Positions 1,713 to 57,580 of a stretch of 64,000 nucleotides of DNA are shown piece after piece (position 1 is the stretch's first letter; each line of letters starts with the position of its first letter). Made by a program: the position numbers and the translations under genes. The notes under the pieces were generated by a model. It saw nothing but the letters and a program-made list of their open reading frames with translations. It had not been told where the DNA came from and did no database searches. Source of the stretch: Bacteroidetes bacterium CG2_30_33_31 (lineage in GTDB: Bacteria > Bacteroidota > Bacteroidia > Bacteroidales > UBA1556); the NCBI GenBank assembly GCA_001872625.1, contig MNXP01000031.1:1-64000 (forward strand). Reading direction: 5' to 3'.

Positions 1713-3974
1713 CTATTTAAGAATGAAGTCTCTGTGAGATTTCAGTAGATTAATGGTATGAAAAGTAAAATTTTTGGCTTCATGAATAATGCTAAAAAAC
1801 AATATTGAAGCTTTGGTGCTTGCTTCGTCATTTTTGATGCGTCGGATTTGCAACTTACGCATGTTAGAAATTTGTGCTGCAATATTTTCTGAAAGCAAAA
1901 TAGCTTCTTCAACTCTATTGTAAGCGGAGTTTGAAATGATTTCATTAACCATATTTATCAGAGAGCTCAAGTTTATTTTTAGATTTCTAAGCTCCTGAAT
2001 TTGTTCAGTGGAGAACCCTTTATGTTTATTGTCGAAATGCTCAACTGCTGGCACCGAGATATATTCAAGGCTATGAGCCATTTCGCGCAAGAAATCGAGA
2101 ACTTGTATATAATAATGACCAGATTCAACAGAGTCTTCACGCATTTTGGATACTGTTTTATGCATGTTTTTCTTGAGTTTTTTTGCTTCTTTATTTATCT
2201 CAAAAACTTTTTTATTAAATCTCTTAAGTTGCTTTGTATCTTCAACAAACATACTATTAAACACCCCTTTTAATGCTTTATCAAATTCTGCTAATGAGCT
2301 GCTTATTTCAATTTTACAACTTTCAACGACACCAAGATTTACAACATTTTCCTCTTTTACATTAGAACTTTCAATTTCTTCTTCTTTTTTATTATGAATT
2401 TTATTTGTTCTAAACACCACTAAGAGCAAAATAGCGAACATTACAATTATACCAAATATACCAGTAAAATATAAAAATGTTGCAATAATAAATGCACTTG
2501 TCATTGCTATTATGGCAGTAAAAAACCATCCTAAAATAACAGTAAGCACACCCGTAATACGAAATACAGCTGATTCTCTTCCCCAAGCTCTATCTGATAA
2601 TGAGGTTCCCATGGCAACCATAAAAGTTACATAAGTTGTAGAAAGTGGGAGTTTATTTGAGGTAGCATAAGAAATTAATATTGCAGATAAAATCAAATTT
2701 ACGGAGGCTCTCAGCATATCGAAAGCAGGGGCATCATTGCCGAGGGCTTTCATTTCCTTCTTATAATTCTTTTGGTCGAATTGCTTACTAATAAATTTTG
2801 TAAATTTTTTAGGAAGAACTTTATCAAAAAACTCTGATGCGCCAACGGTTTGTTTTATTATTGCTCTTGCAATTGGCGAAGATCCAAATTTTTCTTCTCC
2901 CTCATCCTGACGGGCAAGATCTACAGAAGTTTTCACTACACTTCTCGCTTTTTTGGAAAGCCATAAAGTCATAACCATAATGATACCGGAAATAACGAGT
3001 AAATATATCGGAGTAGCTACCTTGCCGCTGAGCCCAACCATCATAAATTGATGATCGTTTAAGGGAGTACCAATTTGATGAATAAACTCTTTAAAAGACT
3101 CAAAACCAGCTAATGGAACTCCTATAAAATTTACCAAATCGTTTCCAGCAAATGCCATTGCTAAAGCAAAAGTACCTGCAAGCACTATAATTTTTAGAAT
3201 ATCTATCTTGAATATCCACCTGAGTATTTGAATAAAAACTGTCCAACTGAGCATGCTATATAGCAAGATATAATTAGATTGTGTAGTAATCCAATTTTTT
3301 AGCATTTCGCCATCAGGCATTATGAAATCAGCATAAATTGAATCTTTTACACCTTTAATAAGCATAAAATATGTGATTGAAGTAATGGCTATTCCACCGA
3401 AGATTGAACCTAAATAATTTAGCTTTTTAACATAATCAAATGAGAATATCAGGCGAACGAAATATTGAACGAGAGCTCCTGCAATAAATGCTACTACTAC
3501 TGAAAGTAATATTGCCGAAATTATTGCTAAGGCTTTTGAAGTATTAATATATTCAGCGATAGTATGAGCATCAACTTGAGTGTAAATCTTAATGACGGAA
3601 ATCGCTAATGCTGCACCTAACAAATCAAATACAATTGATACTGTAGTAGATGTAGGCAATCCGAAGGTATTAAACAAATCTAACATAATAATATCAGTGA
3701 GCATTACTGCCAAAAAAATTATCATTATCTCGCTAAAACTAAAATATTGAGGATGAAATATTCCATTTCGAGCTACTTCCATCATACCGCTCGAAAAGGT
3801 TGCCCCAATCAAAACTCCAATGGCTGCAATGGAAAGAATTACATTATAAGATCCATATTTTGAACCTATTGCCGAACTAAGAAAATTTACAGCATCGTTT
3901 GCCACTCCAACAACTAAATCGGAAATCGCAAGCGAAAACAATAAGATAATAATTAAAAGGTAATAATAATTCAT
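1713..3974 (-). CDS. PiT-family inorganic phosphate transporter with C-terminal PhoU-like domain
   Basis: A 753-residue inner-membrane protein. The N-terminal two thirds hold many hydrophobic helices and the two PHO4/PiT repeats: GVANDAVNFLSSAIGSKYG near residue 23 and FAGNDLVNFIGVPLAG near residue 275, each with the family's GxxND core. From about residue 545 the protein becomes soluble, helical and charged, and resembles PhoU/DUF47 proteins, which associate with Pit transporters. The fusion of transporter and PhoU-like partner is seen in other Bacteroidota. It stands alone, with its own promoter and a Pho-box-like repeat upstream, which fits control by phosphate. Confidence 0.88.
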   Translation of the reverse strand: MNYYYLLIIILLFSLAISDLVVGVANDAVNFLSSAIGSKYGSYNVILSIAAIGVLIGATFSSGMMEVARNGIFHPQYFSFSEIMIIFLAVMLTDIIMLDLFNTFGLPTSTTVSIVFDLLGAALAISVIKIYTQVDAHTIAEYINTSKALAIISAILLSVVVAFIAGALVQYFVRLIFSFDYVKKLNYLGSIFGGIAITSITYFMLIKGVKDSIYADFIMPDGEMLKNWITTQSNYILLYSMLSWTVFIQILRWIFKIDILKIIVLAGTFALAMAFAGNDLVNFIGVPLAGFESFKEFIHQIGTPLNDHQFMMVGLSGKVATPIYLLVISGIIMVMTLWLSKKARSVVKTSVDLARQDEGEEKFGSSPIARAIIKQTVGASEFFDKVLPKKFTKFISKQFDQKNYKKEMKALGNDAPAFDMLRASVNLILSAILISYATSNKLPLSTTYVTFMVAMGTSLSDRAWGRESAVFRITGVLTVILGWFFTAIIAMTSAFIIATFLYFTGIFGIIVMFAILLLVVFRTNKIHNKKEEEIESSNVKEENVVNLGVVESCKIEISSSLAEFDKALKGVFNSMFVEDTKQLKRFNKKVFEINKEAKKLKKNMHKTVSKMREDSVESGHYYIQVLDFLREMAHSLEYISVPAVEHFDNKHKGFSTEQIQELRNLKINLSSLINMVNEIISNSAYNRVEEAILLSENIAAQISNMRKLQIRRIKNDEASTKASILFFSIIHEAKNFTFHTINLLKSHRDFILK

Positions 3975-12121: not shown

Positions 12122-13912
12122 ATGTTAAAACAATTCTCGATAGCAATTCTATTTTCTATATCTTTTTGCTTAAATCTAAATGGGCAATGCGATGTAAGAA
12201 TTCATCTTGCCTCGAATAGCATCTGCCTTGGAGATACTATAATTATGGAGGCCAAAGGTGGTTGTGGAATAGCATTATTTGTCGATTTTAATGACTCAAG
12301 TCTTGGTAACTTACAATCAAACAACACTCAATATATTGGCAAAGCCTGCTCCGAATCGCCTGACAGCTCCAAATATCTGTGGATGGGAACAGTAGCAGGA
12401 CAAAGTTTAATTTACACCCAACTCCTTAATGTTGCCAGCGCAGGTTATTCAATTTGTTTTGATATGAAATATGGCGAAGATGGGAGTTCCATTCCATGCG
12501 ATGGACCATCAACTTTATTGGAAGCAGTTCATCTTCAATATTCAATAAACGCAGGAGTTTCTTGGACAGATTTGCAATTTTGGAATCCCAATGGAGGTCA
12601 TGATGCCAATCTTATTAACTGGCAAAACTATTGCGTAAATATTCCTCTTGCCGCGCAAACCACATCCACAATATTTCGTTGGGTACAGCTATCTACAAAC
12701 CCTGCCAACAGTTCTTGTTGGGGAATCGACAATATTTTAATCCAAAAATATGCACCAACAATTTATCATTGGTCAACTGGATACTATGGAAGCATTCATC
12801 CACCTTTAGCTCCTATAAATACTACAACGTATTATGTTACAGCAACTTCATCGAGCTATACTTCGATAGATAGTGTAAAAGTGAGTGTTTTGCCGAGGCC
12901 TACTGGTGATTTCACAATCTCCAAACCCACATGCAAGAATGATACAATAAATTTTATTTACACTGGCAATGGCGATTCTACAGCAAGCTTTCAATGGAGC
13001 TATAAACAAGCCTCTCAATCCTTTGGAGTTAACAATAAAAATTCCTCTGCAATATGGAATAACTCTGGTCAATATTGGGTTTCGCTAAAAGTTACTACAG
13101 GGGGTTGCACATCATTTCCGAGTCAAAAAAATCTTTTAGTTGCACCACTTATTAGCTTTTATATAAGCACATCTTCAGGCTGTGTGCCTTTAGAGGTAAG
13201 TTACACTGGAAATGTAGAGCCCGCAAATTCGAAGTATTTTTGGAATTTTACCGATGGCACTTCCGACACAAGCGCAAATCCAGTCCATATATTTCAAAAA
13301 GCTGGCGATTATGGTTTGTCATTAATAGCTATAACCGACAGCGGCTGTGTTGATACTCTAAGCTTTGCTTTATTAACGAAAGTTTATCCTTTGCCAATAG
13401 TAGATTTCACCCACACTCCAGAAATAATTCCTTGGTCAAATCCTATAGGGAATTTTCTTGATAAATCAACCAATGCTAATTCATTTTCTTGGAGTTTTGG
13501 AGACCCGAATTCTGCCAGCAATTATTCAAATAGTCAAAACCCAATGCATGATTTTTCTGCAAAGGGTTTATATGAAATTTGGCTAATGGCAACATCAGCG
13601 CATGGATGTATTGATTCATTAATGAAAATTGTTCGAGTTGCAGATGACAGTTTCTTTGTGCCAAATGTTATCACCCCAAATAATGATGGAATAAATGATG
13701 CTTTTACAATTTCAAATTTGGAAAGTCTAAAATATTGTAAAATAAAAATTTATAACCGTTGGGGGCAGCTAATTTATCATAGTAATGATTATAAAAATGA
13801 TTGGAAAGCGTGGGATATTCCCGATGGAGTTTACTATTATTATCTTAATTATGAATCATGGTTTGGGCAAAAAGAAGTAAAGGGGTTTTTTCATGTTTTA
13901 AGAAAATATTGA
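12122..13912 (+). CDS. Secreted PKD-domain protein with T9SS type B sorting domain
   Basis: A 596-residue surface or secreted protein. A signal peptide ends near residue 22 (NLNGQ). The N-terminal 220 residues are beta-rich and cysteine-containing. PKD-like domains follow at about 350-500 (FWNFTDGTSDTSANPVHIFQ, SWSFGDPNSASNYSNSQNPM). The last 85 residues are the gliding-motility-type C-terminal domain, VPNVITPNNDGINDAFTI through IYNRWGQLIYHS, used as the type B signal by the type IX secretion system. It likely acts as an adhesin or matrix protein; the ligand cannot be told. It ends 13 bases from the converging trmD gene. Confidence 0.88.
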   Translation: MLKQFSIAILFSISFCLNLNGQCDVRIHLASNSICLGDTIIMEAKGGCGIALFVDFNDSSLGNLQSNNTQYIGKACSESPDSSKYLWMGTVAGQSLIYTQLLNVASAGYSICFDMKYGEDGSSIPCDGPSTLLEAVHLQYSINAGVSWTDLQFWNPNGGHDANLINWQNYCVNIPLAAQTTSTIFRWVQLSTNPANSSCWGIDNILIQKYAPTIYHWSTGYYGSIHPPLAPINTTTYYVTATSSSYTSIDSVKVSVLPRPTGDFTISKPTCKNDTINFIYTGNGDSTASFQWSYKQASQSFGVNNKNSSAIWNNSGQYWVSLKVTTGGCTSFPSQKNLLVAPLISFYISTSSGCVPLEVSYTGNVEPANSKYFWNFTDGTSDTSANPVHIFQKAGDYGLSLIAITDSGCVDTLSFALLTKVYPLPIVDFTHTPEIIPWSNPIGNFLDKSTNANSFSWSFGDPNSASNYSNSQNPMHDFSAKGLYEIWLMATSAHGCIDSLMKIVRVADDSFFVPNVITPNNDGINDAFTISNLESLKYCKIKIYNRWGQLIYHSNDYKNDWKAWDIPDGVYYYYLNYESWFGQKEVKGFFHVLRKY

Positions 13913-21395: not shown

Positions 21396-21430
21396 GGAAG
21401 CCCCATTCGCCAAAGGCGAATGGGGCTTCC
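21396..21430. terminator. Strong bidirectional hairpin terminator
   Basis: A perfect 16-bp stem, GGAAGCCCCATTCGCC and its complement around loop AAA, between the converging LuxR-type gene and the giant surface-protein gene. It is the most GC-rich stretch nearby. T-rich sequence follows on both strands, so it can serve both genes. Confidence 0.85.
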
Positions 21431-21448: not shown

Positions 21449-24400
21449 TTATTTGTTAATTACCATCTGTTTACTTAAACGATAACCATCAAATTCAATG
21501 CTGTAATAATAAATGCCTGAGGCAAGTTTTGAAGCATCAATTTTAACTTGATGTATGCCTGCATTATTCTTTTCATTCAAATCTATCACCGATTCGCCAA
21601 TGTGATTAATCATCTTGAAATGTACATTACCTCCACTTGGAATTTCATATTGAATTGTAGTTATTCCATTGGCTGGGTTTGGCATATTCTGCCATAGTCG
21701 CATTCCATTTGCCAACTCTTCAACTAATCCATCAGCCAAAATTGACTTACAAGACTTGTCGTTTGTACTATTCATATCACTTAACAGAAGTGTTTTAGCA
21801 CACAATTGATAAGTACCAACAGGTGAAGAATATGGAGTAGCAAAGGTGAAATCAACACTGTCATTAATTTGAAGAGCAGTTCCAGTCCAAGTTTCCATAA
21901 CTGCAGGTGAAGTATTTACCTGATATTGAACAGCAACACTACTCAAAGGTGTAGTTCCATGGTTGAAAATTCTAACTTTCACATAATTAGGTTGGAACAA
22001 TGGTGCTGTATCATTAGGAGCAAGTATTTTTGACACTCCTGCATCGAGTGGTGGTGGTGTAACTAAGACATTCTTACAACTTTGGTCATTTAAGTTATAC
22101 ACATCGCCAGATATTTGAGTGTAAACACACAGATTGTAGGCTGTTGCTGGTGCTGTGAATGTAGTATTAAATGTTAGATGTGCTGTATCACCAGGTAATA
22201 TTCCATTATTGGCAATATTAAATGTTTGACTTACTGGTGTGCCAGAATTAACTTTATACTTCATTGGAACTGTAAATAATGTATCATAACCAAAGTTCTG
22301 GACAATAGCTTTGACAATGACAGGATTTCCAATTATCGAAGATGCTGCGGGCTCAATAATTCCAGCAACTCCACCGTCATATTGAATTTGAGGCAGCGCT
22401 ATAGAGAAATCATCCACTAACCAACCTTCATCATTTCCAGAGGCATTACTCATAAAATGGAATCGGAATTGAATTGGAGTTGTAAGAGTTGTCAACAAAC
22501 TTGTTAAGTCGTAAGTAGATTGCACCCACCCTGTTTGCTGTCCACTGAAGAAATGATTGCCACCAACATTACTAGTATACCAATTAGTTGCGTAAGGATC
22601 GCCAATATATCCAAGTAATATCCATGTTAAACCACCATCCGTACTATATTGTACATTTCCACCATCACTTGAGGAAATCTTATACTTATGCCAGAATTTT
22701 AATGTAGCATTTGTTACATTGGTCATATTGAAGAAGGCGCTGTACAAATTAGCATCAGCAGCATCTGGATAGTTAGATGCGAGTTTTGTCATCCAAGCAT
22801 TTGGTGCGCTATGAGCAGAATTCAAGCTAACTTGTGCTGGCATACCGTGTTGCCATACATTTCCATCTTCTGCCCAATAATTAATTGGACCATCAAAATT
22901 GTCGTTGTATGTCAAATTCAATAATGGCATTCCTGTAAAGCTTGAATATAGAGTGTCGTTGGTATTGTCCAAATCAGGAGTATATGCTGTAAATACTTTT
23001 AATGGAAGATTACCTGCCTGAACAGTAAATGGAGTTGTAAAAGTATAGTTCATAGAGCCCCCAACAGGAATAACTCCTGTCCAAGCAACAATTACTGGGC
23101 TATTATTGCCATATTTATATCCAATATTCATGCTTGTAATAGAATCAGTACCAAAATTTCTTATTACTGCTTCTACCACTTTAGTGGTTGTAACTGCTGC
23201 ATAAGTGATACTTGGTTGAACTAATGCATAAACTGATGCATCATATTGAAGTGGGCTGAATTCATCAGAGCCAATACTTGGGTTTGTAGAACTTCTAATA
23301 TCGCCATCAATATCGATAGAAATGTTATCAAATGGTTTTCCTCCGACGGCCACAGCTGGATTGGTAGCATGCAAATCATTTGGAGAATAATAACCTGGAT
23401 CCATACTAATTGAGTTGCTATCCATGCTGCTTGCAACTTGTATTGCGGCTAAATTGGCAACAGAGCCATTCCAATAACCGAAAGTGGTGCCTGTTTCATA
23501 ATAATTGTTGTGGTCAGAATAAACCAGTGAACTGCCAGAATAGTAGATGGTATAAGCATTAAGTGAGGTGACAAAATTATTATTAACACTTCTGTTATTT
23601 TCGCCTTGGTAAATGTATGCCGCTCTTGAATAATTACTTCCCGAAGAAATATTTACGCTATTGAAGCTTATATCCTGATATTTGGAATAATAAATATATA
23701 GTCCATACGATGCTCCAGTACCTGAGCTTATACTTACATTATTATTGAAAATTCTTCCATGTTGTGCATAAGTTCCTGAACAATAATAAACTCTCAATCC
23801 ATAAGAATAATTATTTGGATGCAATTTGAAATTATTGTTTGAAATCTCTAAATATTTATTACAATTATAGAAGTATGTTGGATAATAAGCATAAGTACCA
23901 GTACCTTCCATTACGAGATTATTTCTGAACATCAATGAATCTTGATAAGTAATATAACAACCATAGTAATAAAAATCCTTGATGGTATTATGACTAAATA
24001 TTGTTGCTTTATCATAATTTGCTGTTGAAACACCAGCCCAATAGATTGCATAATAGCCTCCAGAAATTTCATTATAAGAAAACTCATTGAAATTATCGCT
24101 GCTACCTGTGGAATAAATAGCTCTAATAGAAGAAGATGCATACATTGGGACTTTAATAATATTGCCAATAAATTTATTATGGTTTGCACTATTATTCATT
24201 AAAATTGCATATCCATTAGTAGCTCCGGTAGATTGAATAGTCATATTTTTAAAAGTAACATAATCAGCACCATTAAGATAAAGAACAGAAGTTATTGTTC
24301 CTGCTGGTGTATAATTCAAACTTACCAATGTACTATCACCTGAAACAGATTTAAATGTTACAGTTGAAGTATCGGAAGCTCCATAGATTGAACCTATTTC

Positions 24401-27400
24401 AATGTGCTCAGTATAGTTTCCATTATTTACCAAGAATACCACGTGACTATCAACTCCGCAATAATTTAATGCAGAAACTGCAGATGCAAAATCAGGGAAG
24501 TCGGCAGTTGCACCACCAAGTGTATAAGTACCATGAAGTTGGCCAGTACAACCAATCAATGTAACCTTCAAAGTGTCATTATAATGCAATTGGTCAGGGT
24601 GGTTATTTGGATTTGATGTCCACAATTTCAGAGTATTAGCTCCCGATAAGAAGTTGTAAGAGCCAATATTTAATGAGTCAACTGAGTTTCCAGATAAAAG
24701 TGAGCCAGTCCATGAATAAGGAGTTTGAGACGTACCATTTACATTCCAACCAATACTTACGCTTGTAAGGGTATCAGCACCATAGTTACGCCATGATATG
24801 TAAACATTATTAGACCCTACAGTTACAGGAGAAGTTGGAGATTTTAAATAAGTAACCCCAGCATCCCACATTGGTGGAGTATATTCATCTGCACCAATAT
24901 CAGGAGTTGTTAAACTTCTTGACTCGCCGTCGATATCATAAGGAACATCGAGTAATGGATATGCAGCATTATTCAAATCAATATTTGAAGTATGTAGATC
25001 TGCTTGTCCAAAGAATGTTGGATTTACTGATTTTGAATGAGAATCTTTGCTGCTGGCTAATTTATGAGCAGCGAGATTTGCTCTTGTTCCATTCCAATAA
25101 GTAAGATTTGCTCCTGTTGTATAAAAATCATTATAGTCGGAGTTTGAAATAGTGGCTGATGAGCCAAAATATGCAACGTAACCGCCAACGCTATTTGAGA
25201 AAATGTTATTTACAAGAGCTTCTCCATAAGTATTTGAAGTAGTATTACTCTGATATAAAGCAAAGCTCGATGCCGAACCACCAGTGATAGAAATACTGTT
25301 ATTATAGACCTTTATATTATTTGAATAAACCATATAAAGTCCATAATTCGAACCAGAGCCATTAGTCATCGCAATAAAGTTATTGGCCAAAATCCCTGGC
25401 TGAGTGTTTGAGGTTATGTAAGCATAATAATTTGCATAATACATCCTAATACCATAACTGGAAGACCCTGCATTTATAATAATTCTATTTTTACTAAAGT
25501 TGAAGGCATTAAAGTTATAATATGAATAGATACCATAATTATATGAGTAAGTTCCATCATGAACATAATTGCCAATTACTTGTACAGAATCTTGGTAATA
25601 GACCATGATGCCGTAATAATAGAATCCGGAAATATCATTTCCTTCAATTATATTTGCACGTGCCAAACTTGCTGTTCCAACGCCGTAAACATACATTCCA
25701 TAATAACCACCCTGCAGTATATTATTTTTGATAGTATTAAATTCGTTCACAGTACCACCATAAATAACAACAGGGCGAGCATAGGAAGATGAGTTAACAC
25801 TACATATAATTCGACAGTTCTCAACAGCATTATGTTTTGCTCCACCAGTCATTTCAACACCATAAGCATAGGAAGAGCCAGTTGCTTTAATAGTCATTTT
25901 CTGGAAGGTATAATAACTTGAGCCATTAAACTTAAGAGTTGATGCGTCGGCACTTGATGAACCAGAATATTCAATTACAACATCAGTGCTATCACCTGTT
26001 GCAGAGCGGAAAGTAATTGTATTGCCAGTATCCATACCAGCAATAGGCAAAAGTTCAACTTTTCCAATATATGTTCCACTATCTACCAAGAAAGTAACAT
26101 GTCCACAAATACCAGCAGTATTAACTGCATTTAATGCACCTTGGAAAGATTGATAGTCTTTAGTTGTATCACCAATTGTGTAAACCCCATTCATACAAGC
26201 AGTAAAAGTACTTTTGATGGTGTCATTTAGATTGACAGCTTGAGTACCTCCATTAGCTCCAGTAACATAGAATTCTAAATTGTGTAAGCCGCCGTTAAAT
26301 GTGCTTGTATAGACTGTGATTGGTGCAGAAATACTTCCGAAAGGAAGACTTCCTGTCCAATTGTAGTTTGCAATAACGCTTCCATCGAGTTTATAAGTTA
26401 TGGTTGTACTTGTCAGTGTATCAGTACCAAAATTCTTAATACTCACTTGAACTGGAGTTGCAGTATTAGATGTAACAGCTCCCACAGGACTTACAACAGC
26501 ATACATTGCTGCATCTTTTAGAGGTGGAGGACTAACATTAACAATTACAGCAACTTTTGGACTTGGACAGCCTGTATTTTGAACAACTAACTTCATATTT
26601 GGGCGTCTTGTATATGTAGTTCCAGTAGCGTAAGGGCAAACTCCACCGCCATCAGAATGATAGTTTACAGTACTTGCAAATGATGTTGATGTCTGATTTA
26701 CAATAGCATTTAAACTATATGACGAGCCAGCATTATAATTATCAAAACAAATCTCAATAAGCAAATTACTGGTACCATTCCAATTGAAAGGTGTGTTAAA
26801 ATGATGAGTATTCCAGCCACTTACTGTTTGATAACTGGGAACATTATAAACTTGGGTAAGGCCAGTTTGGAATGTTGAAGATACAGCTGTCATATTTGTA
26901 TTCATCATCTTAATTGTAAGATTCTGATGGTTATAACCTAAGCTGGTAGCAGCGTTTGGAGTAACTACATCAAAGGCAAGAGATTGAATTTTTCCTGGAG
27001 GAATACCTGCTGCTTGTAATTCAGCTGCTGTTATTAAATATTGCTCTTTACTTCCAGTATACCATTGCCCATAAGGAGATGGATAAGTAGTATTTGCAAC
27101 GGTAACTGTACCAGTACCCACTGCTGCAGCACCTGAAGCTCCTGCAAGGGCAGCTACATAAAATGTATCAGTTTGATAAAGTGGGCCAACAACTAATGGT
27201 GATCCACCAGCAAATGCCACTGTAGAAGTATCATAATTATACCATAAAACAGTATCAGGAGATAAAGCTGTCAATGTTCCATTTCCTCCATAAGTTACTG
27301 CCACAGGGGTATTGGTTGTTGGTACTAATGGTGTATAAAGTGATAATACAGAATCTCTCTTCAAGGTATCATTTGGATGATATGGATCTGATGCAAGTGT

Positions 27401-30400
27401 TATGGCTGCCGTAATCTTAAACATAGTATCTGTAATTGCAAATAAATTGGCAGGAGTAGTAAATGTATATTGTATGGTAGCCATTGAATTTATTGAAGCA
27501 GTAACATTTTCAGGTGTTATCCATGCATTATTATTTATTTTATATCGTGCTGTAACACCAGTTGAAATTGTTCCAGTGCCTTGATTGTAAACAGAAATCG
27601 TAATAGCTTCAGTAGAATCCAGTCCGCATCCTTCATTAACAGTAATTGCTGATATTCCTAAATCACCAAGAGGCATATTTGAAATTGATACATGTGAAGA
27701 ATCTTTAGCACTGTAGCAACCATTAGAACTTAATGCGGCAACATAGAATGTTTTTGGTCCAAACAAATGTGGAGTAACAAAACTTGAACCTAATCCAAGC
27801 GGTGTGGTAGAACCTATTGAATTGTACCAAAATATTGTATTAGATGATGTTGCTGTTAGAGTTGCTGTATTTGAATAAGTGGTGGTTGTGTTAGATGTTA
27901 CTGGTGAAGGAGGAATCACACCATTAAAAATATTCACTTTCACAGTGTCATTAAATCCTAATGGATCTTGAGGTAGTTCGCCCCAAACCCAAAGATGAAA
28001 TGTAGAGTCAACACTTGATGTTAAATTGACTTGAGTTGCAAAAGTGTAAACTAAGGTATCACCATGAGTTAAAATATTTGTTGCAGCACCACTTGTAGCA
28101 GTAGCTCCATGATTAATTGAATACTTCAATACTAAATTTCCATGAATTGTGTCAGTACCAGTATTAATTACTTTGACTTTCACTGTAACATTTGTCAAAC
28201 CACAACCTGGTGAAGTAGGCTCTACAACAGAAAATACAGTGATGTCTTGAGCGGGTGGATTAAATTCATCTGCTCCCATATCTGGAGTCAAAGTGTCTCT
28301 CAAATCCAAATCCACGTCATAAGGCACTGATGCTAAAACAACTCCCATATCATTGACTGGGCTTGTTATCATGTGAAGATTACTATTAGTCATAAAACTT
28401 GGATTTACACTTATTGAATGTGCATCTTTACTATTAGCAGTTTTTAAAGCTGCAAGATTTGCCCTGTTACCATTCCAATAAGCCAAAACTGTACCTGTGG
28501 TATAAAAGCAATTATAATCTGAAGTGATAACTGCTGAAGGAGTGCCAATATAATATGCATAATTATTTCCGCTGAAAATATTATTCTTAATATTAAGGCT
28601 ACTTCCACTGCTTTGGTATAACCCGCGTGAAGAAGTTCCACCACCTATAATATTTATACTGTTGGAATAAATATCAATGAAATTATTATTGTAGCAATAT
28701 AAACCATAATTTGTTGATGTTGTATTTGATACAATGCTTATCATATTGTTAGCAATCAATCCTCTTGCAGAGACTGAGGCAGAATTATAATAGGAATAAA
28801 GTCCATAAGCATAATTTACAGGAGTTAATTTAATTTTATTGCCAACAATTTTTATGTTTCCGCCATTGTAATAAGAATAAATTCCCCTTGGATATTGCGA
28901 TGCAACATTATTAATAATCTCATTGCCATTTATTACTGCAGAGTCTTGGTAATAAGACATAATTCCATAATAATAAAAACCGTTAAAAATATTGTCTTCA
29001 ATTACATTTCCCACACCTTTAGAGATAGCAGATGAACCATAAGAATATGCTCCATAATAACCATTTTTAATATAGTTATTTGAGAAAGTATTATATTTAA
29101 TGCTTGCATCTGAATAATAGATGCCGGCATAAGTGCTACTTGTAGAAACTGGCAAATCAATTACGCAATTCTTCAGGAAATTATGATTTGCTCCATTAAA
29201 TAATTCAATACCACGCCCTGAAGAAGTTCCTGTTGCTTTTAAAGTTAAGCTTTTAACTGTAACATAAGAAACATTTTTTAGAGATACAACTGCAGGTTGT
29301 GCAGCAGTGGAAGCATAATTTAATATCACACTTGTGCTATCGCCATTGGTTGATTTAAAAGTAATTGTGTTTACCGATGAATTGCCTAAAATTGCATTTA
29401 AAACAATTTGTTCATTGTAGGTTCCAGGATTTATATTAAATACCACTGGACCGCAAATTCCATTATTATTAAGTAAGGAAGTTGCTGCTGAAATCGTCGG
29501 AAAATCTGCTGTTGAACCTCCAATTGTATAAGTTCCAGCTGGTAATGAGGTATGGAAACCACTTATATTTGTGCTATCATTTGCCGATTGCAAATCAGTC
29601 ACTCCATTAGGGTTTGTTGTCCAGAAATCTAAATTATAAAATGTGCTTGCACTAAATACATAAGTTCCTATAATTTTGTTTCCAGTTTGACCTGGCAATA
29701 AAGTACCAGTATAACTTGCAGGCGTTTGTACAACCCCGTTAATACTCCAATTTACTGTGGCTGAAAACAAAGTATCTGTTCCAAAGTTTTTCACTTTTAC
29801 TGTAATAATGGAGGTATCTCCAGGACAAGCAGTAATTGGGGAAACCATTGCTGAAACTCCAGCATCATTAGCCAAAAGCAAAAACTCATCAGCACCAATA
29901 CAAGGAATACTGTCTCTTAAATCGCCGTCGATATCAGTTGTGATAACAGAATCAGAATGGCCTTTTTGAAAGATTCCGATAGCTCCTGCATGCAAATCTG
30001 TTTGCGATGTAAATTGAGGGTCTGTTGATACTGAATTTCCTTCCATACCAGTTGCAGATTGAAGGCCAGCAAGGTTGGTAATATTTGCTGAAGCATAAGC
30101 TAAATAAGTTCCATCGGTAAGAAAATCATTATAATTCGATGAAGATATACTTGACGGATATCCATAATATGCAGCATATCCACCACTTCCTTTAGCTGAG
30201 AAAATATTGTTTTTGAAATATTGATTTGAAACTGTTGTTGTTCCATACTGATATAGTGCTCGGCTCGAGGTTGAACCTTCAGAAATTGAAATTGTATTAT
30301 ACATAACATAAATTCTACTGGCATAATATACATACATACCATAATTAGTACCTGTTCCTGTAGAAATACTAATCATGTTATTTGTGCAATATCCAGGTGC

Positions 30401-33187
30401 TGTGGTTGAATTATTATAATTTGAAAAATAATTAAAAAGTCCATAAGCATAACTACTTGGAGTAAAAATAATTTTATTTTTAGAAATGTTAAATCCATTG
30501 TAATTGTAGTAGCCATAGATACCATAGCAATAATTATAAGCATTATCATGAAGATAATTGCCAATAATTTGAACTGAATCTTGATAATAAGCCATCATTC
30601 CATAAATATAAAATCCGCTAATATCATTATTGGAAATCACATTATATTTTGCCCAAGAGATGGAACTTGTACCATAAATATATAATCCATAATATCCACC
30701 AACAATTTTACAATTATTAACTGTGTTAAAATCATTGGAAGCACCTCCATAAATTACAATTGGCCTGCAATAAGATGAATTAATAACATCGGAAATTATT
30801 TTACAGCCATCAACAGTATTGTGTGAAGAGCCGTTCGTCATTTCCACACCATAACCATAAGTTGCGCCAGTGGCACGAATTGTTAAGTTTTTAAGAGTAA
30901 TATAACTTGCATTATTATATCTTACAACATAATTATTGGTAGTACTTGTAGCTGCATATTGCAAAATTACATCATCTGCATTTGCAGTAGATGATTGAAA
31001 AGTTAATGTTGTACTATCAGAAACTCCTTGCACAGCATTGAATAAAAGGTGCATATTATAAGTACCTGGTACAATATTTATTACCGTAGTTCCGCAAATT
31101 CCAACACTATCTAAAACCGTCTGAAGTGAAGCAAATGTTGGAAAATCTGAGTTTGGACTTCCTAAGGTGAATGCACCCGATAAGCAAACATATACAAAGC
31201 TGCTAGTAGTATCATTTTGGTTTGCCCAATCAAGGCTATCATTTGGCATTGAAGTCCATGCTTTAATTCTATAAACTCCTGATCCAAAAGTATAATTGGC
31301 TACAGTTACTAATTGTGAAGAATCATTTGGTAATGCACCTAACCAGTTATAAACAGGATAAACAGAATCATTAATTGAGTAATATATTTTACATTTTGTC
31401 AATGAATCTACTCCGGTATTTTTAAGATTAACTTTTATTGGATAAGAAACACCTTGATTTACTGAACCACTCGGTAGTGCATAAGTAAGACCAGCATCAT
31501 TATGAGGAATTCCAGAAATATTAACAGTAACTTTTTTCATGGCACTTGGGCAGGCACCTGCTGTGGCAGAGCCTCCACCAGCGTGGTAATAAATCCTACC
31601 ATTAAATAATCTGGGTGAAAATGTCCCAGCCCATGGATATGCTATACCAGCTCCCACAGTTAAGGTCATATTAGCATCTGTATAAGTTACTATTGAAGTG
31701 CCTGTAGTATAGTTTACACTTCCAGAAGTAAGAGTTACATATATTCCATAAGTTTGACCAGCAGGTATAACCAAATTACCTACTGCCAATTTTGCTTTAT
31801 TGCCTACACCGGATCCTGTTGAAACCACAGAATGTGATCCTAATAAAGTCCATGCAGAGGATGTTGCTTCCGAACCAACATAAGTTCCTAACTTATAATA
31901 AACCATACCTGTATAGGTTCCTGCAGCTTGTGGACTAATTAAAAAGCTATCCAAAGTTACAGTATTTATCGCTGTTACATTGAACATATTTCCACTTTGT
32001 CCATTCCCTCCAGTCCAGAGAGTAGAAATACTATCTGCTACTCCACCTGCACCTGCTTGGCAATAGTAAACAGCAGTATCATACAATACTGGCGTTTGGA
32101 AATATTGACCATATTGAATTTGATTTTGCCCTAATGGATCTGAATACCATATTATTGTATCTGAATGAATTGCATGTAGCAGCGTGCTTGTAGCATAAGG
32201 AATAGTGGGGTCACTTATTACAGGTGAAACTAATGGAACCCTCGAAGTAACAGAGTCATCTGTAATAGTATCATTAGCATGATTGGGGTCACCAACAAGA
32301 CTTACCCAAACCTTTAATTTATAATTCGTATCTGCTGTTGTAGCTAAATTTACTGTATTAGTAAAAGTATATGTAATTGTATCATAAGGAATTATTGTAT
32401 TAGGAACAGTTTCCGTAACTGTTGCCAAACCATCTCTTTTAAAAGATGCTGTTAAACCTCCTGAGATGTTTGCCGAACCATTATTAGCAATTTTTACCTG
32501 AACAACTTCATTACCCAAACCGCAACCCGATGCTAATGCATAAGGCATAAAATAACTTGCAGCACTTGCCTCCTGATTTGATGGCTTCCAAACTTCAATA
32601 TTATCTAATAACCAACCATAATTGCCAGCAGCACCTGTAGAGTTAGCATCTACAATCTTAAAACGCACTTTTACTTGAGCTGCATTTGACACATAGGATG
32701 AGATGTTAAACTTTTCGTGCTTCCACCAGCTTGCCGTAGGTATCGCATTATTATTGGCTGGCTGCCAATCTGCATAAGATGTAGAATTGAACTTATTTCC
32801 AATATTTATATATTGCCCAGCTCCAAGATATCCTGTTGTAAGTTGTGTCCATGTAACTCCATTGTTATTTGACACCTCTATTATACCAGCATCAAAAAAC
32901 TCCATCTTTGCTATCTGGTCGAACTCCAAATATACAACCTGACTCCCTGTAGTGTTAAATGCTGGGGAGGTTAGATAGGTTGTGTCAGCCAATCCTACTT
33001 TTGCAGAGTCAGCCTTTAATCCAGTGGCATGTAGTTGCGTTGTGACTGCCCAATTGTTGTTATTCTTTTCAGAAGTTGAGGTGAATACATTAGTAGCACC
33101 TTCAAATCCTTCCTGAAGCAAATATGTCTGTGATTGAGCTACATAGCTCATAAAAAACATTGCTGATAAGAGTAATAGTTTTCTCAT
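21449..33187 (-). CDS. Giant T9SS surface protein with four parallel beta-helix modules
   Basis: An uninterrupted 3,912-residue protein. A signal peptide (MRKLLLLSAMFFMSYVAQS) is followed by a jelly-roll domain (about 20-200), then Ig/CARDB-like domains. Four copies of a right-handed beta-helix module of about 430 residues lie at roughly 669-1101, 1214-1641, 2331-2768 and 2882-3310. Each opens with G-Y-T-x-G-x-x-x-x-DF and ends in D-x-R-x-x-x-x-x-x-G-A-D-E. A second jelly-roll (about 3410-3600), two CARDB-like domains and a type A sorting domain (last 85 residues, LWQNMPNPANGITTIQYE) complete it. Modules are rich in Tyr, Asn, Ser and Gly. Carbohydrate binding or adhesion is likely; no catalytic residues were identified. 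Confidence 0.9.
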   Translation of the reverse strand: MRKLLLLSAMFFMSYVAQSQTYLLQEGFEGATNVFTSTSEKNNNNWAVTTQLHATGLKADSAKVGLADTTYLTSPAFNTTGSQVVYLEFDQIAKMEFFDAGIIEVSNNNGVTWTQLTTGYLGAGQYINIGNKFNSTSYADWQPANNNAIPTASWWKHEKFNISSYVSNAAQVKVRFKIVDANSTGAAGNYGWLLDNIEVWKPSNQEASAASYFMPYALASGCGLGNEVVQVKIANNGSANISGGLTASFKRDGLATVTETVPNTIIPYDTITYTFTNTVNLATTADTNYKLKVWVSLVGDPNHANDTITDDSVTSRVPLVSPVISDPTIPYATSTLLHAIHSDTIIWYSDPLGQNQIQYGQYFQTPVLYDTAVYYCQAGAGGVADSISTLWTGGNGQSGNMFNVTAINTVTLDSFLISPQAAGTYTGMVYYKLGTYVGSEATSSAWTLLGSHSVVSTGSGVGNKAKLAVGNLVIPAGQTYGIYVTLTSGSVNYTTGTSIVTYTDANMTLTVGAGIAYPWAGTFSPRLFNGRIYYHAGGGSATAGACPSAMKKVTVNISGIPHNDAGLTYALPSGSVNQGVSYPIKVNLKNTGVDSLTKCKIYYSINDSVYPVYNWLGALPNDSSQLVTVANYTFGSGVYRIKAWTSMPNDSLDWANQNDTTSSFVYVCLSGAFTLGSPNSDFPTFASLQTVLDSVGICGTTVINIVPGTYNMHLLFNAVQGVSDSTTLTFQSSTANADDVILQYAATSTTNNYVVRYNNASYITLKNLTIRATGATYGYGVEMTNGSSHNTVDGCKIISDVINSSYCRPIVIYGGASNDFNTVNNCKIVGGYYGLYIYGTSSISWAKYNVISNNDISGFYIYGMMAYYQDSVQIIGNYLHDNAYNYCYGIYGYYNYNGFNISKNKIIFTPSSYAYGLFNYFSNYNNSTTAPGYCTNNMISISTGTGTNYGMYVYYASRIYVMYNTISISEGSTSSRALYQYGTTTVSNQYFKNNIFSAKGSGGYAAYYGYPSSISSSNYNDFLTDGTYLAYASANITNLAGLQSATGMEGNSVSTDPQFTSQTDLHAGAIGIFQKGHSDSVITTDIDGDLRDSIPCIGADEFLLLANDAGVSAMVSPITACPGDTSIITVKVKNFGTDTLFSATVNWSINGVVQTPASYTGTLLPGQTGNKIIGTYVFSASTFYNLDFWTTNPNGVTDLQSANDSTNISGFHTSLPAGTYTIGGSTADFPTISAATSLLNNNGICGPVVFNINPGTYNEQIVLNAILGNSSVNTITFKSTNGDSTSVILNYASTAAQPAVVSLKNVSYVTVKSLTLKATGTSSGRGIELFNGANHNFLKNCVIDLPVSTSSTYAGIYYSDASIKYNTFSNNYIKNGYYGAYSYGSSAISKGVGNVIEDNIFNGFYYYGIMSYYQDSAVINGNEIINNVASQYPRGIYSYYNGGNIKIVGNKIKLTPVNYAYGLYSYYNSASVSARGLIANNMISIVSNTTSTNYGLYCYNNNFIDIYSNSINIIGGGTSSRGLYQSSGSSLNIKNNIFSGNNYAYYIGTPSAVITSDYNCFYTTGTVLAYWNGNRANLAALKTANSKDAHSISVNPSFMTNSNLHMITSPVNDMGVVLASVPYDVDLDLRDTLTPDMGADEFNPPAQDITVFSVVEPTSPGCGLTNVTVKVKVINTGTDTIHGNLVLKYSINHGATATSGAATNILTHGDTLVYTFATQVNLTSSVDSTFHLWVWGELPQDPLGFNDTVKVNIFNGVIPPSPVTSNTTTTYSNTATLTATSSNTIFWYNSIGSTTPLGLGSSFVTPHLFGPKTFYVAALSSNGCYSAKDSSHVSISNMPLGDLGISAITVNEGCGLDSTEAITISVYNQGTGTISTGVTARYKINNNAWITPENVTASINSMATIQYTFTTPANLFAITDTMFKITAAITLASDPYHPNDTLKRDSVLSLYTPLVPTTNTPVAVTYGGNGTLTALSPDTVLWYNYDTSTVAFAGGSPLVVGPLYQTDTFYVAALAGASGAAAVGTGTVTVANTTYPSPYGQWYTGSKEQYLITAAELQAAGIPPGKIQSLAFDVVTPNAATSLGYNHQNLTIKMMNTNMTAVSSTFQTGLTQVYNVPSYQTVSGWNTHHFNTPFNWNGTSNLLIEICFDNYNAGSSYSLNAIVNQTSTSFASTVNYHSDGGGVCPYATGTTYTRRPNMKLVVQNTGCPSPKVAVIVNVSPPPLKDAAMYAVVSPVGAVTSNTATPVQVSIKNFGTDTLTSTTITYKLDGSVIANYNWTGSLPFGSISAPITVYTSTFNGGLHNLEFYVTGANGGTQAVNLNDTIKSTFTACMNGVYTIGDTTKDYQSFQGALNAVNTAGICGHVTFLVDSGTYIGKVELLPIAGMDTGNTITFRSATGDSTDVVIEYSGSSSADASTLKFNGSSYYTFQKMTIKATGSSYAYGVEMTGGAKHNAVENCRIICSVNSSSYARPVVIYGGTVNEFNTIKNNILQGGYYGMYVYGVGTASLARANIIEGNDISGFYYYGIMVYYQDSVQVIGNYVHDGTYSYNYGIYSYYNFNAFNFSKNRIIINAGSSSYGIRMYYANYYAYITSNTQPGILANNFIAMTNGSGSNYGLYMVYSNNIKVYNNSISITGGSASSFALYQSNTTSNTYGEALVNNIFSNSVGGYVAYFGSSATISNSDYNDFYTTGANLTYWNGTRANLAAHKLASSKDSHSKSVNPTFFGQADLHTSNIDLNNAAYPLLDVPYDIDGESRSLTTPDIGADEYTPPMWDAGVTYLKSPTSPVTVGSNNVYISWRNYGADTLTSVSIGWNVNGTSQTPYSWTGSLLSGNSVDSLNIGSYNFLSGANTLKLWTSNPNNHPDQLHYNDTLKVTLIGCTGQLHGTYTLGGATADFPDFASAVSALNYCGVDSHVVFLVNNGNYTEHIEIGSIYGASDTSTVTFKSVSGDSTLVSLNYTPAGTITSVLYLNGADYVTFKNMTIQSTGATNGYAILMNNSANHNKFIGNIIKVPMYASSSIRAIYSTGSSDNFNEFSYNEISGGYYAIYWAGVSTANYDKATIFSHNTIKDFYYYGCYITYQDSLMFRNNLVMEGTGTYAYYPTYFYNCNKYLEISNNNFKLHPNNYSYGLRVYYCSGTYAQHGRIFNNNVSISSGTGASYGLYIYYSKYQDISFNSVNISSGSNYSRAAYIYQGENNRSVNNNFVTSLNAYTIYYSGSSLVYSDHNNYYETGTTFGYWNGSVANLAAIQVASSMDSNSISMDPGYYSPNDLHATNPAVAVGGKPFDNISIDIDGDIRSSTNPSIGSDEFSPLQYDASVYALVQPSITYAAVTTTKVVEAVIRNFGTDSITSMNIGYKYGNNSPVIVAWTGVIPVGGSMNYTFTTPFTVQAGNLPLKVFTAYTPDLDNTNDTLYSSFTGMPLLNLTYNDNFDGPINYWAEDGNVWQHGMPAQVSLNSAHSAPNAWMTKLASNYPDAADANLYSAFFNMTNVTNATLKFWHKYKISSSDGGNVQYSTDGGLTWILLGYIGDPYATNWYTSNVGGNHFFSGQQTGWVQSTYDLTSLLTTLTTPIQFRFHFMSNASGNDEGWLVDDFSIALPQIQYDGGVAGIIEPAASSIIGNPVIVKAIVQNFGYDTLFTVPMKYKVNSGTPVSQTFNIANNGILPGDTAHLTFNTTFTAPATAYNLCVYTQISGDVYNLNDQSCKNVLVTPPPLDAGVSKILAPNDTAPLFQPNYVKVRIFNHGTTPLSSVAVQYQVNTSPAVMETWTGTALQINDSVDFTFATPYSSPVGTYQLCAKTLLLSDMNSTNDKSCKSILADGLVEELANGMRLWQNMPNPANGITTIQYEIPSGGNVHFKMINHIGESVIDLNEKNNAGIHQVKIDASKLASGIYYYSIEFDGYRLSKQMVINK
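23258..24540 (-). repeat. Beta-helix module 4 of the giant protein
   Basis: Runs from GTYTLGGATADFPDFASAV to SSTNPSIGSDEF; about 428 residues. The order of segments (opening signature, NHNKF/NEFS turns, YYYGCYITYQDS, IDGDIR) matches the other modules. The copies have diverged, so this is an old duplication, not a recent one. Limits are approximate. Confidence 0.85.
24882..26195 (-). repeat. Beta-helix module 3 of the giant protein
   Basis: Runs from GVYTIGDTTKDYQSFQGAL to TTPDIGADEY; about 438 residues. The middle contains FYYYGIMVYYQDSVQVIGNY, nearly the same as in module 1 (FYIYGMMAYYQDSVQIIGNY). Confidence 0.85.
28264..29545 (-). repeat. Beta-helix module 2 of the giant protein
   Basis: Runs from GTYTIGGSTADFPTISAAT to LTPDMGADEF; about 427 residues. 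Contains FYYYGIMSYYQDSAVINGNE. The linker to module 1 is short (about 110 residues); the linker to module 3 is long (about 690 residues) and carries Ig-like domains. Confidence 0.85.
29884..31180 (-). repeat. Beta-helix module 1 of the giant protein
   Basis: Runs from GAFTLGSPNSDFPTFASLQ to SIPCIGADEF; about 432 residues. Opening and closing signatures match modules 2-4. Confidence 0.85.
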
Positions 33188-54211: not shown

Positions 54212-57200
54212 TTACATATTTCTTCTATACTGTCCGCCTACTCCAAATAATGCATCAGTTATTTGTCCAATTGTGCAATATTTTGTAGCCTCCATAAGAA
54301 CTTCAAATACATTTTTATTGTTGGTGGCAGTAGATTTCAAAGCCTCAATCCACACAGCAGATTCTTCGGCAAAGCCTATTTTATTTCTCTCGATGGTTTT
54401 AATCTGTCTTTCCTTTTCATCAATAGTTGCTCTGATAACTTCTCCTGGGATAGTAGTTGGAGAGCCCTTGGTAGATAAAAAAGTATTAACACCCATAATT
54501 GGTAGTTTGCCGCTATGTTTCAGAGTCTCATAATAGAGAGATTCCTCTTGAATTTTTCCACGCTGATAATTTGTTTCCATAGCTCCTAAAACTCCGCCCC
54601 TTTCAGAAATTCTATCAAATTCAATCAACACAGCCTCTTCCACAAGTTCGGTAAGTTCTTCAATTATAAAAGAGCCTTGGTTAGGGTTTTGATTTTTTGC
54701 CAAGCCCAATTCATGATTTATTATCATTTGAATTGCTATCGCCCTGCGAACAGATTCCTCCGTTGGAGTTGTAATTGCCTCATCATAAGCATTGGTATGC
54801 AATGAATTACAGTTATCATATATTGCATAAAGAGCTTGAAGAGTTGTGCGGATATCGTTAAAATCAATCTCTTGAGCATGCAAGGAGCGCCCAGAAGTTT
54901 GAATATGATATTTGAGTTTCTGTGAGCGATCGTTGCCACCATATTTCAGTTTCATGGCTTTTGCCCAAATAAGTCGAGCTACTCTGCCAATTACAGAAAA
55001 CTCAGCATCGATACCGTTAGAGAAGAAAAAAGATAAATTTGGTGCAAAATCATCTATATTCATACCACGAGAAAGATAATATTCCACGTATGTAAATCCG
55101 TTAGAAAGAGTAAAAGCCAATTGGGATATTGGATTAGCACCAGCCTCGGCAATATGATAACCCGAAATTGAAACCGAATAAAAATTTCTAACGCCGTTGT
55201 CAATAAAATACTGCTGAATATCTCCCATCAATTTAAGAGAAAAATCTGTTGAGAAAATGCAAGTATTTTGTGCTTGATCTTCCTTCAAAATATCTGCTTG
55301 AACAGTTCCTCTGACAACCGAAATAGTTCTTGCTTTAATTTTTTCGTAAGTATCTTTTGGGAGAACTTGATCTCCAGTAACTCCCAGAAGCATAAGACCT
55401 AAAGCATTATTTCCTTCGGGCAATTTTCCATAATAAGTTGGCTTGCTTATACCTCTTTTCTTGTAAATTGCATCAATTTTTTTTTCAATTTCCGACTGAA
55501 GACCTTTTTCAATAATATATTTCTCACATTGTTGGTCGATGGCGGTATTCATATAATAGCCTACAAGATGAGGAGCTGGACCATTTATTGTCATGGAAAC
55601 TGATGTAGATGGGCTACATAAATCGAATCCAGAATATAGCCGTTTAGCATCATCGAGGCAGCAAATTGATACACCAGAATTTCCAATCTTTCCATAAATA
55701 TCTGGTCTTCTATCAGGGTCATTTCCATAAAGAGTTACCGAATCGAAAGCAGTAGAAAGTCTTTTGGCAGGAAGTCCAAGAGAGACATAATGAAAGCGAC
55801 GGTTTGTCCTTTCAGGGCCGCCTTCACCAGCAAACATTCGGGTAGGGTCTTCTCCTTCGCGTTTAAAGGGGAAAACACCAGCAGCAAAAGGAAATTCACC
55901 AGGAACATTCTCTTTTAAATTCCATTTCAAAATATCTCCCCAGCCTTTATATTTTGGCATAGAAACCTTTGGAATCATAAGGTGAGAAAGAGATTCGGTG
56001 TGAGTTTCAACTTTCAATTCCTTATCTCTTACCTCAAAACTATAATAAGGCTCTTTATACTTTTTACAGCGCTCTGTCCAATTTTCTATTATTTTAATAC
56101 ATTGTCTATCAATCTTTTCTTCCTGATTAGATTTCATCTTTTCTAAGAATAATTTATCCTCAGATTCAATTTTTTTCGCATTCTCAATAACTTGATTTAT
56201 CGACTGTAACTTCTGAATTTCATTGGCTTGCTTATCAGCCCAAGAGTTATAATTTCTAATTTGCTCACTAATTTCGGAGAGGTATCCTATTCTTTGAGGA
56301 GGAATAATGTGAATTTTTTCTGACAATTCAGCGGTTTGGGCAAGATTAGAAAAGAATTTTCCATCGGTTTTTTCAGAAATAATTTTCATAAGATTGCGAT
56401 AGAATTCATTCACGCCAGGGTCGTTGAATTGTGATGCAATAGTTCCATACACTGGCATATTATCATACTCTTCATTCCAGCGATCATGATTCCTTTGGAA
56501 TTGTTTTTTTACGTCGCGAAGCGCATCCAATGCTCCTCTTTTATCAAACTTATTAAGAGCAATAATATCAGCAAAATCGAGCATATCAATTTTCTCAAGC
56601 TGAGTGGCAGCACCATAATCAGGAGTCATTACATAGGCTGAGATATCGCTATGGTTGGTAATTTCGGTGTCGCTTTGACCAATGCCAGAGGTCTCCAAAA
56701 TTATCAAATCATAAGCTGCCACTTTCATAACATCCACAGCATCTTGCACAAAAGCCGATACTGATAAATTCGATTGTCGTGTGGCCAAAGAGCGCATAAA
56801 TACCGCTTTATTATTTATGGCATTCATCCTTATTCTGTCGCCGAGCAATGCTCCGCCAGTTTTTCTTTTCGAAGGATCTACAGAAATTATTGCAATACTT
56901 TTGTCTGGAAAATCATTGGTAAATCGTCGAATTATTTCGTCCTCCAAGCTTGATTTTCCGGCACCACCAGTGCCGGTAATTCCAAGGACTGGAGTTTTAC
57001 ATGATTTTGCAATTTTATTAATATCTGACTTGAGAATTTGAGTCTCTTCAGGAAAATTTTCAAAAGCAGAAATAGCTCTTGCAAGCGAGTTAATATCCTT
57101 ATTTTTTATGTCTTCAATTTTAATATTTGGATTTTTCCCTGTAGGAAAATCGCAACTTTTTACCAAGTCATTTATCATTCCTTGCAAACCCATTGTTCTG

Positions 57201-57580
57201 CCATCATCGGGAGAATAAATTCTGGTAATTCCATAATTATGAAGTTGTTCAACCTCATCAGGCAATATAACTCCTCCGCCACCGCCAAAAATTTTGATTT
57301 GCGGATTACCACTTTCTTGAAGCAAATCGTACATATATTCAAAAAACTCTATGTGCCCGCCTTGGTATGAAGTAAGTGCAATACCTTGCACATCTTCTTG
57401 TATAGCACAATCGACAATCTCTTGTACCGAACGATTGTGCCCAAGGTGAATAACCTCAGCACCAGTAGATTGAATGATTCGACGCATAACATTTATCGCA
57501 GCATCATGACCGTCGAAAAGACTGGCAGCAGTAACAATTCTTACATGATTTTCGGGTTTATATCGATCTTTATTTATCAT
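54212..57580 (-). CDS. icmF: Fused isobutyryl-CoA mutase IcmF
   Basis: A 1,122-residue adenosylcobalamin enzyme that interconverts isobutyryl- and butyryl-CoA, with related activities. Domains in order: B12-binding (1-140, H25 in [10 protein letters not shown] as the cobalt ligand), a MeaI-type G-protein chaperone (about 195-420, Walker A GTGGAGKS at 203-210, NKFDKRG), a linker, and the mutase barrel (about 560-1100). The segments [17 protein letters not shown] and [16 protein letters not shown] are those of IcmF rather than methylmalonyl-CoA mutase. Full length. No acyl-CoA genes adjoin it. Its promoter could not be fixed; CAAAATAA at 57619 is one base off on the minus strand. Confidence 0.92.

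Follow-up and report, generated by a model that had tools for sequence, protein, structure and literature searches.

A 3,912-residue predicted T9SS surface protein with four beta-helix modules and two variable domain slots in an uncultured Bacteroidota genome

The locus and the layout of the giant protein

The window, a 64,000-nt stretch of DNA, carries at positions 21449-33187 of its minus strand an open reading frame of 3,912 codons without an internal stop, encoding a protein of 3,912 aa with a mass of 421 kDa and a pI of 5.2. The initial annotation had assigned one gene of 3,912 residues to this interval; the frame is indeed open throughout, and the strand, which had been left unstated, is the minus strand. 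The chain begins with a predicted signal peptide, and the residue after the predicted cleavage site is Gln20. A passage in PMC5837995 describes Gln directly after signal peptide cleavage as the Bacteroidetes Q-rule, and the agreement of Gln20 with this rule supports the signal peptide call. At the other end, the C-terminal sorting domain (CTD, PF18962) scores 38.3 bits against a cut-off of 27. Signal peptide and type A CTD together support the earlier description of the protein as T9SS cargo.

The hairpin beyond the stop codon sits between the giant gene and a convergent LuxR-type gene and is probably a bidirectional terminator common to both. A promoter scan performed no better than chance, and Rfam and tRNA scans of the whole window gave no matches. 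The neighbours of the giant gene, as scanned, are mostly housekeeping genes, with relA/spoT adjoining, and no polysaccharide utilisation locus was recognised among them. Further away, positions 54212-57580 encode a single chain of 1,122 aa that joins B12-binding, MeaB-type GTPase and methylmalonyl-CoA mutase domains (a fused mutase), and positions 12122-13912 encode a PKD protein with a Reelin-type jelly-roll and a type B (CHU_C) sorting domain.

In the full protein, Pfam recognises, besides the sorting domain, Beta_helix (3.8e-17, six stretches), Ig_7 (1.6e-12, three stretches), CARDB (3.3e-9) and Reelin_subrepeat-B (9.4e-8, two stretches); an NCBIfam search with the whole protein gave no matches. 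The first half of the chain reads signal peptide, jelly-roll, CARDB1, Ig1, J2, CARDB2, M1, CARDB3, M2, CARDB4, Ig2, CARDB5 and Ig3, and the second half J3, CARDB6, M3, CARDB7, M4, CARDB8, jelly-roll, CARDB9, CARDB10 and CTD (Table 1). The ten CARDB-like linkers are 15-37% identical to one another by self-alignment; two stretches exceed the Pfam CARDB threshold on their own, and the other linkers come from a profile built on the giant protein, which also matches linkers at equivalent sites of independent proteins. The initial annotation had proposed jelly-rolls close to the two termini and several Ig-like domains, and both are recovered here, as two MAM/Reelin-type domains and as three Ig_7 plus about ten CARDB-like domains. 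Searched alone, the N-terminal jelly-roll reaches 7e-4, below the cut-off, and it is 48-56% conserved in orthologues.

Table 1. Features of the giant gene and its downstream flank, in window coordinates
Feature	Residues	Position	Strand	Basis or remark
Signal peptide	1-19	33131..33187	-	Hydrophobic MRKLLLLSAMFFMSYVAQS, followed by Q; read from sequence
N-terminal jelly-roll (Reelin-subrepeat-B/MAM-like)	20-205	32573..33130	-	One of two Reelin_subrepeat-B stretches
CARDB-like 1 and Ig_7 1	206-395	32003..32572	-	Pfam, self-alignment, linker profile
Slot A variable domain J2	396-559	31511..32002	-	Without convincing Pfam family
CARDB-like 2		31184..31510	-	Self-alignment, linker profile
Beta-helix module M1	669-1104	29876..31183	-	Self-alignment, module profile, tree
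CARDB-like 3		29543..29875	-	Self-alignment
Beta-helix module M2	1216-1644	28256..29542	-	Pfam, self-alignment; AF2 pLDDT 97.2; Foldseek
CARDB-like 4, Ig_7 2, CARDB-like 5	1645-1952	27332..28255	-	Pfam, self-alignment, linker profile
Ig_7 3	1953-2030	27098..27331	-	Own profile weak; third of three Pfam Ig_7 stretches
Slot B variable domain J3	2031-2220	26528..27097	-	Jelly-roll-like beta-sandwich, AF2 pLDDT 85.9
CARDB-like 6	2221-2331	26195..26527	-	Best Pfam CARDB stretch 2234-2277
Beta-helix module M3	2332-2771	24875..26194	-	Self-alignment, module profile, tree
CARDB-like 7		24539..24874	-	Self-alignment
Beta-helix module M4, most divergent	2884-3312	23252..24538	-	Self-alignment, module profile, tree
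CARDB-like 8		22940..23251	-	Self-alignment
C-terminal jelly-roll	3417-3600	22388..22939	-	InhA-like MAM 9.3e-8, Reelin subrepeat B 3.9e-6, both above cut-off
CARDB-like 9 and 10	3601-3826	21710..22387	-	Self-alignment, linker profile
Type A T9SS sorting domain (Por_Secre_tail)	3827-3912	21452..21709	-	Pfam 1.7e-9, above cut-off
Perfect 16-pair GC-rich hairpin		21396..21430		Immediately beyond the giant gene stop codon

Orthologues, age of the repeats and the variable slots

Relatives of the modules were found with the module profile in 20 of the 41 genomes searched, among them each of the other ten species in the genus. Most of the relatives that carry names are MAGs of Bacteroidales or other Bacteroidota, and the isolate names of several point to lakes and a cave. 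Full-length orthologues occur in three other species of the genus (3,914, 3,859 and 3,874 aa); they share the 2+2 order of modules, with 40-46% overall identity. As for the giant gene, relA/spoT adjoins the orthologue in two of the three; the genes on the opposite side, rsgA-like and recJ-like as judged by eye, differ.

In a position-wise comparison of the modules of the four proteins, the actual order exceeds every other of the 13,824 possible arrangements in summed identity, with a same-position identity of 43.0% versus a null mean of 39.1%; the mean within a protein is 38.7%. The tree groups M1 (100/95) and M4 (99/94) by position, M2 likewise in three of the four species (100/95), and joins the window's M3 to that of the G007 orthologue (100/97). 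Position-matched modules across species indicate that the duplications predate these species and that the order was kept while the sequence drifted, in line with the earlier proposal of a maintained, long repeated scaffold.

The genome is a MAG of 76 contigs, and repeats in short-read assemblies can collapse; frameshifts or a collapse or expansion of the repeats had been named as grounds for withdrawing the initial annotation. The modules, however, differ at over half of their residues, and their DNA matches at just 65-75% over part of the length, which is too far for collapse. Moreover, three other assemblies hold intact full-length orthologues of equal length and order, which argue strongly against such an error, and we regard an artefact of repeat number or reading frame as extremely improbable. 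Because full-length orthologues and position-matched modules recur in other species, the repeats are, as judged by sequence comparison, old and not a product of assembly. A separate case is a 1,868-aa Zixibacteria protein (L075:5053-10284) with four head-to-tail modules, which cluster together in the tree and hence expanded independently.

The rods formed by the modules are constant between orthologues, and two slots between rods carry differing domains. Slot A holds J2 in the window, an LTD domain in the G007 orthologue (1.3e-9) and a MAM domain in those of G004 (2.7e-22) and G003, the latter MAM being 48% identical to that of G004; where MAM is present, Ig+MAM stands in place of J2. Slot B holds J3 in the window, G004 and G003 (63% and 45% identical), and an unrelated domain, common to a Lake Pavin relative, in the otherwise closest orthologue, G007. 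By eye, this G007 domain resembled discoidin/F5-F8; as Pfam gave only Ig_7 there and a PDB search nothing, we treat it as an unassigned domain. J3 itself matched no Pfam family, and a PDB sequence search with it gave nothing significant; in Foldseek, its modelled beta-sandwich weakly resembles the lectin-like domain of Cwp84 and the carbohydrate-binding module of FjoAcXE (E 0.005-0.03). The pattern suggests that the two slots carry exchangeable domains on conserved rods.

Fold, conservation and tyrosine content of the modules

The four beta-helix modules annotated initially are all recovered, each of 429-440 aa and 38-46% identical to the others by self-alignment. They also retain, as had been claimed, common start and end signatures (G.[YF]T[IL]G ... 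D.D...R....P..G[AS]DE[FY]) despite this divergence. The initial annotation had pointed to structure prediction as a check, and the AlphaFold2 model of M2, based on 51 alignment rows, reaches a pTM of 0.94 at the pLDDT given in Table 1, with an N-terminal helical cap followed by successive coils of strands. According to this model, the module is likely a right-handed beta-helix, and profile match and modelled fold agree on membership of the right-handed parallel beta-helix family (PF13229). Nearly all Foldseek matches of the model are right-handed beta-helices, led by GH136 lacto-N-biosidase (5.6e-9, TM 0.56) and followed by pectin methylesterase, PL6, rhamnogalacturonan lyase and PL9; the pneumococcal adhesin PfbA (PDB 3zpp) appears lower down (E 2.4e-3). 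A search of the module profile against PDB sequences gave nothing significant.

Tyrosine makes up 15-17% of the coil cores versus 5% of the rest of the giant protein, and 2-9% of other beta-helices of the same genome. Tyrosine is also common in canonical beta-helix repeats. The coil strands follow the pattern Y-G-[IL]-Y-x-Y, in which the positions alternating with inward Ile/Leu are expected to point outward. Aromatic residues account for 79% at twelve inferred outward positions versus 4% at twelve inward positions in the giant protein, 60% versus 11% in 93 nearer relatives and 45% versus 13% in 72 distant ones, percentages that are descriptive and not a test, since the outward positions were chosen after viewing the sequences. 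Strand alternation thus hints at tyrosines facing outward from the rods.

The Foldseek ranking speaks for reading one or more modules as active carbohydrate-degrading enzymes (polysaccharide lyase or GH136-like glycosidase) and the other domains as CBMs, which would make the protein a giant multi-catalytic enzyme. CBM-like sandwiches often accompany enzymes, and Asp200, within YQDS, is invariant in M1-M4; over 169 modules, however, this position is acidic in just 49%. The top conserved positions of the 169 modules are an asparagine ladder (N156, 184, 207, 235, 265/266, 294, 320/321 and 344, 89-100% conserved), glycines, tyrosines and the C-terminal cap (D409 100%, R415 99%, G423 100%, E426 97%). 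The cap holds the sole near-invariant charged residues; no conserved acid pair or Lys/Arg was found in the coils across the 169 modules, and no coil Lys/Arg is invariant even across M1-M4. As to pectate lyase-like families, a comparison likewise suggested at the outset, the fold of M2 matches PL6, PL9 and GH136 at 10-15% identity, and none of 51 modules matched a Pfam profile of a polysaccharide lyase, GH136 or pectin methylesterase family. Pfam gave generic beta-helix families only, and no CAZyme family was consistently recognised in Pfam or NCBIfam over these 51 modules. In NCBIfam, two of the 51 match PRK10531 (acyl-CoA thioesterase-like) at 3e-5 and three match choice-of-anchor Q (NF041518) at 0.01 (best 2.4e-5; M2 without match), the C-terminal motif of the modules resembling the DIGA.E motif of choice-of-anchor Q proteins. 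Intact lyase sites, which would have spoken for an enzyme, are not a conserved feature of the 169 modules. Since no conserved active site was found, we reject enzymes as the main reading and consider it quite unlikely, also in view of the mostly housekeeping neighbourhood; the conservation pattern goes against an intact lyase site, and one module may still have its own.

The tyrosines lend themselves to another explanation, a secreted or surface structural protein of a sheath or matrix, in which rods pack side by side via their ladders without specific ligands. Such packing would fit the continuous outward aromatic stripes and the many paralogues in the genome, and passages in PMC10727499 and PMC9247515 discuss tyrosine ladders for fibre-forming beta-solenoid ice nucleation proteins. 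In contrast, the 50-60% divergence between species and the swapped slots point to changing ligands or antigens and not to a lattice that stays the same, and the N-terminal helical cap and C-cap close each rod. We hold this explanation to be unlikely.

Export, proposed function and related surface proteins

The genome encodes 96 CTD matches, about 89 of them above the cut-off, and 16 module matches, including the four of the giant gene. Six C25 peptidases, a PorU-type one among them, three PorP/SprF and GldM exceed their cut-offs, and SprA/Sov is represented by a weak match only (20 bits versus a cut-off of 200); a search with SprA_N gave no match, in the controls as well. The giant protein would be exported by Sec and the T9SS, followed by removal of the CTD by PorU, and the 409-kDa remainder would be attached to a surface glycolipid or released.

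With moderate confidence, we favour a giant, non-enzymatic fibre tethered to the surface, whose conserved rods would present exchangeable binding domains and which would serve to adhere or to bind polysaccharide. Signal peptide and CTD, the T9SS genes, three 2+2 orthologues, position-matched modules, the confident beta-helix model, the lack of conserved catalytic residues in the coils of 169 modules, the aromatic residues at inferred outward positions, slot swaps and the weak lectin/CBM likeness of J3 support this reading; against it stand the enzymes among the best M2 fold matches, at their low identity, the sub-threshold SprA/Sov match and the frequency of tyrosine in canonical beta-helix repeats. 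The role as adhesin, polysaccharide binder or fibre is suggested by domain content. Four right-handed beta-helix rods (~13 coils, ~6 nm each), arranged 2+2 with CARDB/Ig linkers, would provide the fixed frame, whose contour length we estimate at ~0.1 micrometre. Specific binding would fall to the jelly-rolls near both ends and to slot A, following the N-terminal jelly-roll, and slot B, between the rod pairs. Two outward tyrosine ladders per rod may add contact with polysaccharide or neighbouring fibres, and as a whole the protein would serve to attach its cell to particles, to glycans or to other cells. A more specific version, still tentative and on balance doubtful, is that the modules form a distinct, unnamed rod family widespread in Bacteroidota, with two functional outward Tyr ladders (polysaccharide binding or rod zipping) and a 2+2 chassis with two swap slots.

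Giant beta-helix adhesins as a general idea are not new, because methanogens and Apilactobacillus are known to have surface proteins with giant or repeated beta-helices, and SprB is a known giant T9SS adhesin. SprB is a type B cargo. This gliding adhesin of Flavobacterium johnsoniae (6,497 aa) is, as predicted for the present protein, a giant surface protein that a member of the Bacteroidota exports by the T9SS (PMC9870892, PMC10202324). Type B cargo (PF13585) requires PorP/SprF, with which its genes usually cluster (PMC10202324), whereas the giant protein has a type A CTD (PF18962), no PorP/SprF gene nearby (the three matches of the genome are on contigs C8 and C9, whereas the window belongs to C4) and beta-helix rods as its main repeats. 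Adhesin-like proteins of Methanobrevibacter and Methanosphaera combine one to seven right-handed beta-helix domains with Big-type domains, at >40 per genome (PMC11532034); these surface proteins share the fold, but they are archaeal, with other anchoring domains and without a T9SS CTD. Giant1-5 of Apilactobacillus kunkeei are extracellular proteins of 3,000-8,000 aa diversified by recombination, and Giant1-4 have predicted beta-solenoids like those binding glycans (PMC12863079); they differ in their Gram-positive host, N-terminal solenoid and clustered genes. PfbA of Streptococcus pneumoniae is a surface protein and adhesin, but a far smaller chain of 421 residues at 11% identity and TM 0.35. 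The GH136 proteins LnbX/BsaX/TnX, the best fold match, are enzymes at 13-15% identity, whereas the module coils lack a conserved carboxylate pair over 169 modules.

No paper joining T9SS, beta-helix and CARDB was found in the literature. The locus offers an orthologue-backed case of giant T9SS surface protein evolution, in which an old rod frame keeps its order while two slots change, and its tyrosine-rich beta-helix face is a candidate surface for binding or assembly, open to testing, in uncultured Bacteroidota; we single out this face and the exchange of slot domains as worth a test.

Other giant ORFs of the same 2.87-Mb genome, 2,110-4,727 aa long, also encode T9SS or module-bearing proteins (contigs C45, C47, C48, C24 and C56; L053-L057), several of which bear the same rods in other arrangements. 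A Lake Pavin MAG (L076, L078, L081) encodes several giant proteins with 2+2 or 3+2 modules, of which two lie on adjacent stretches of a single contig.
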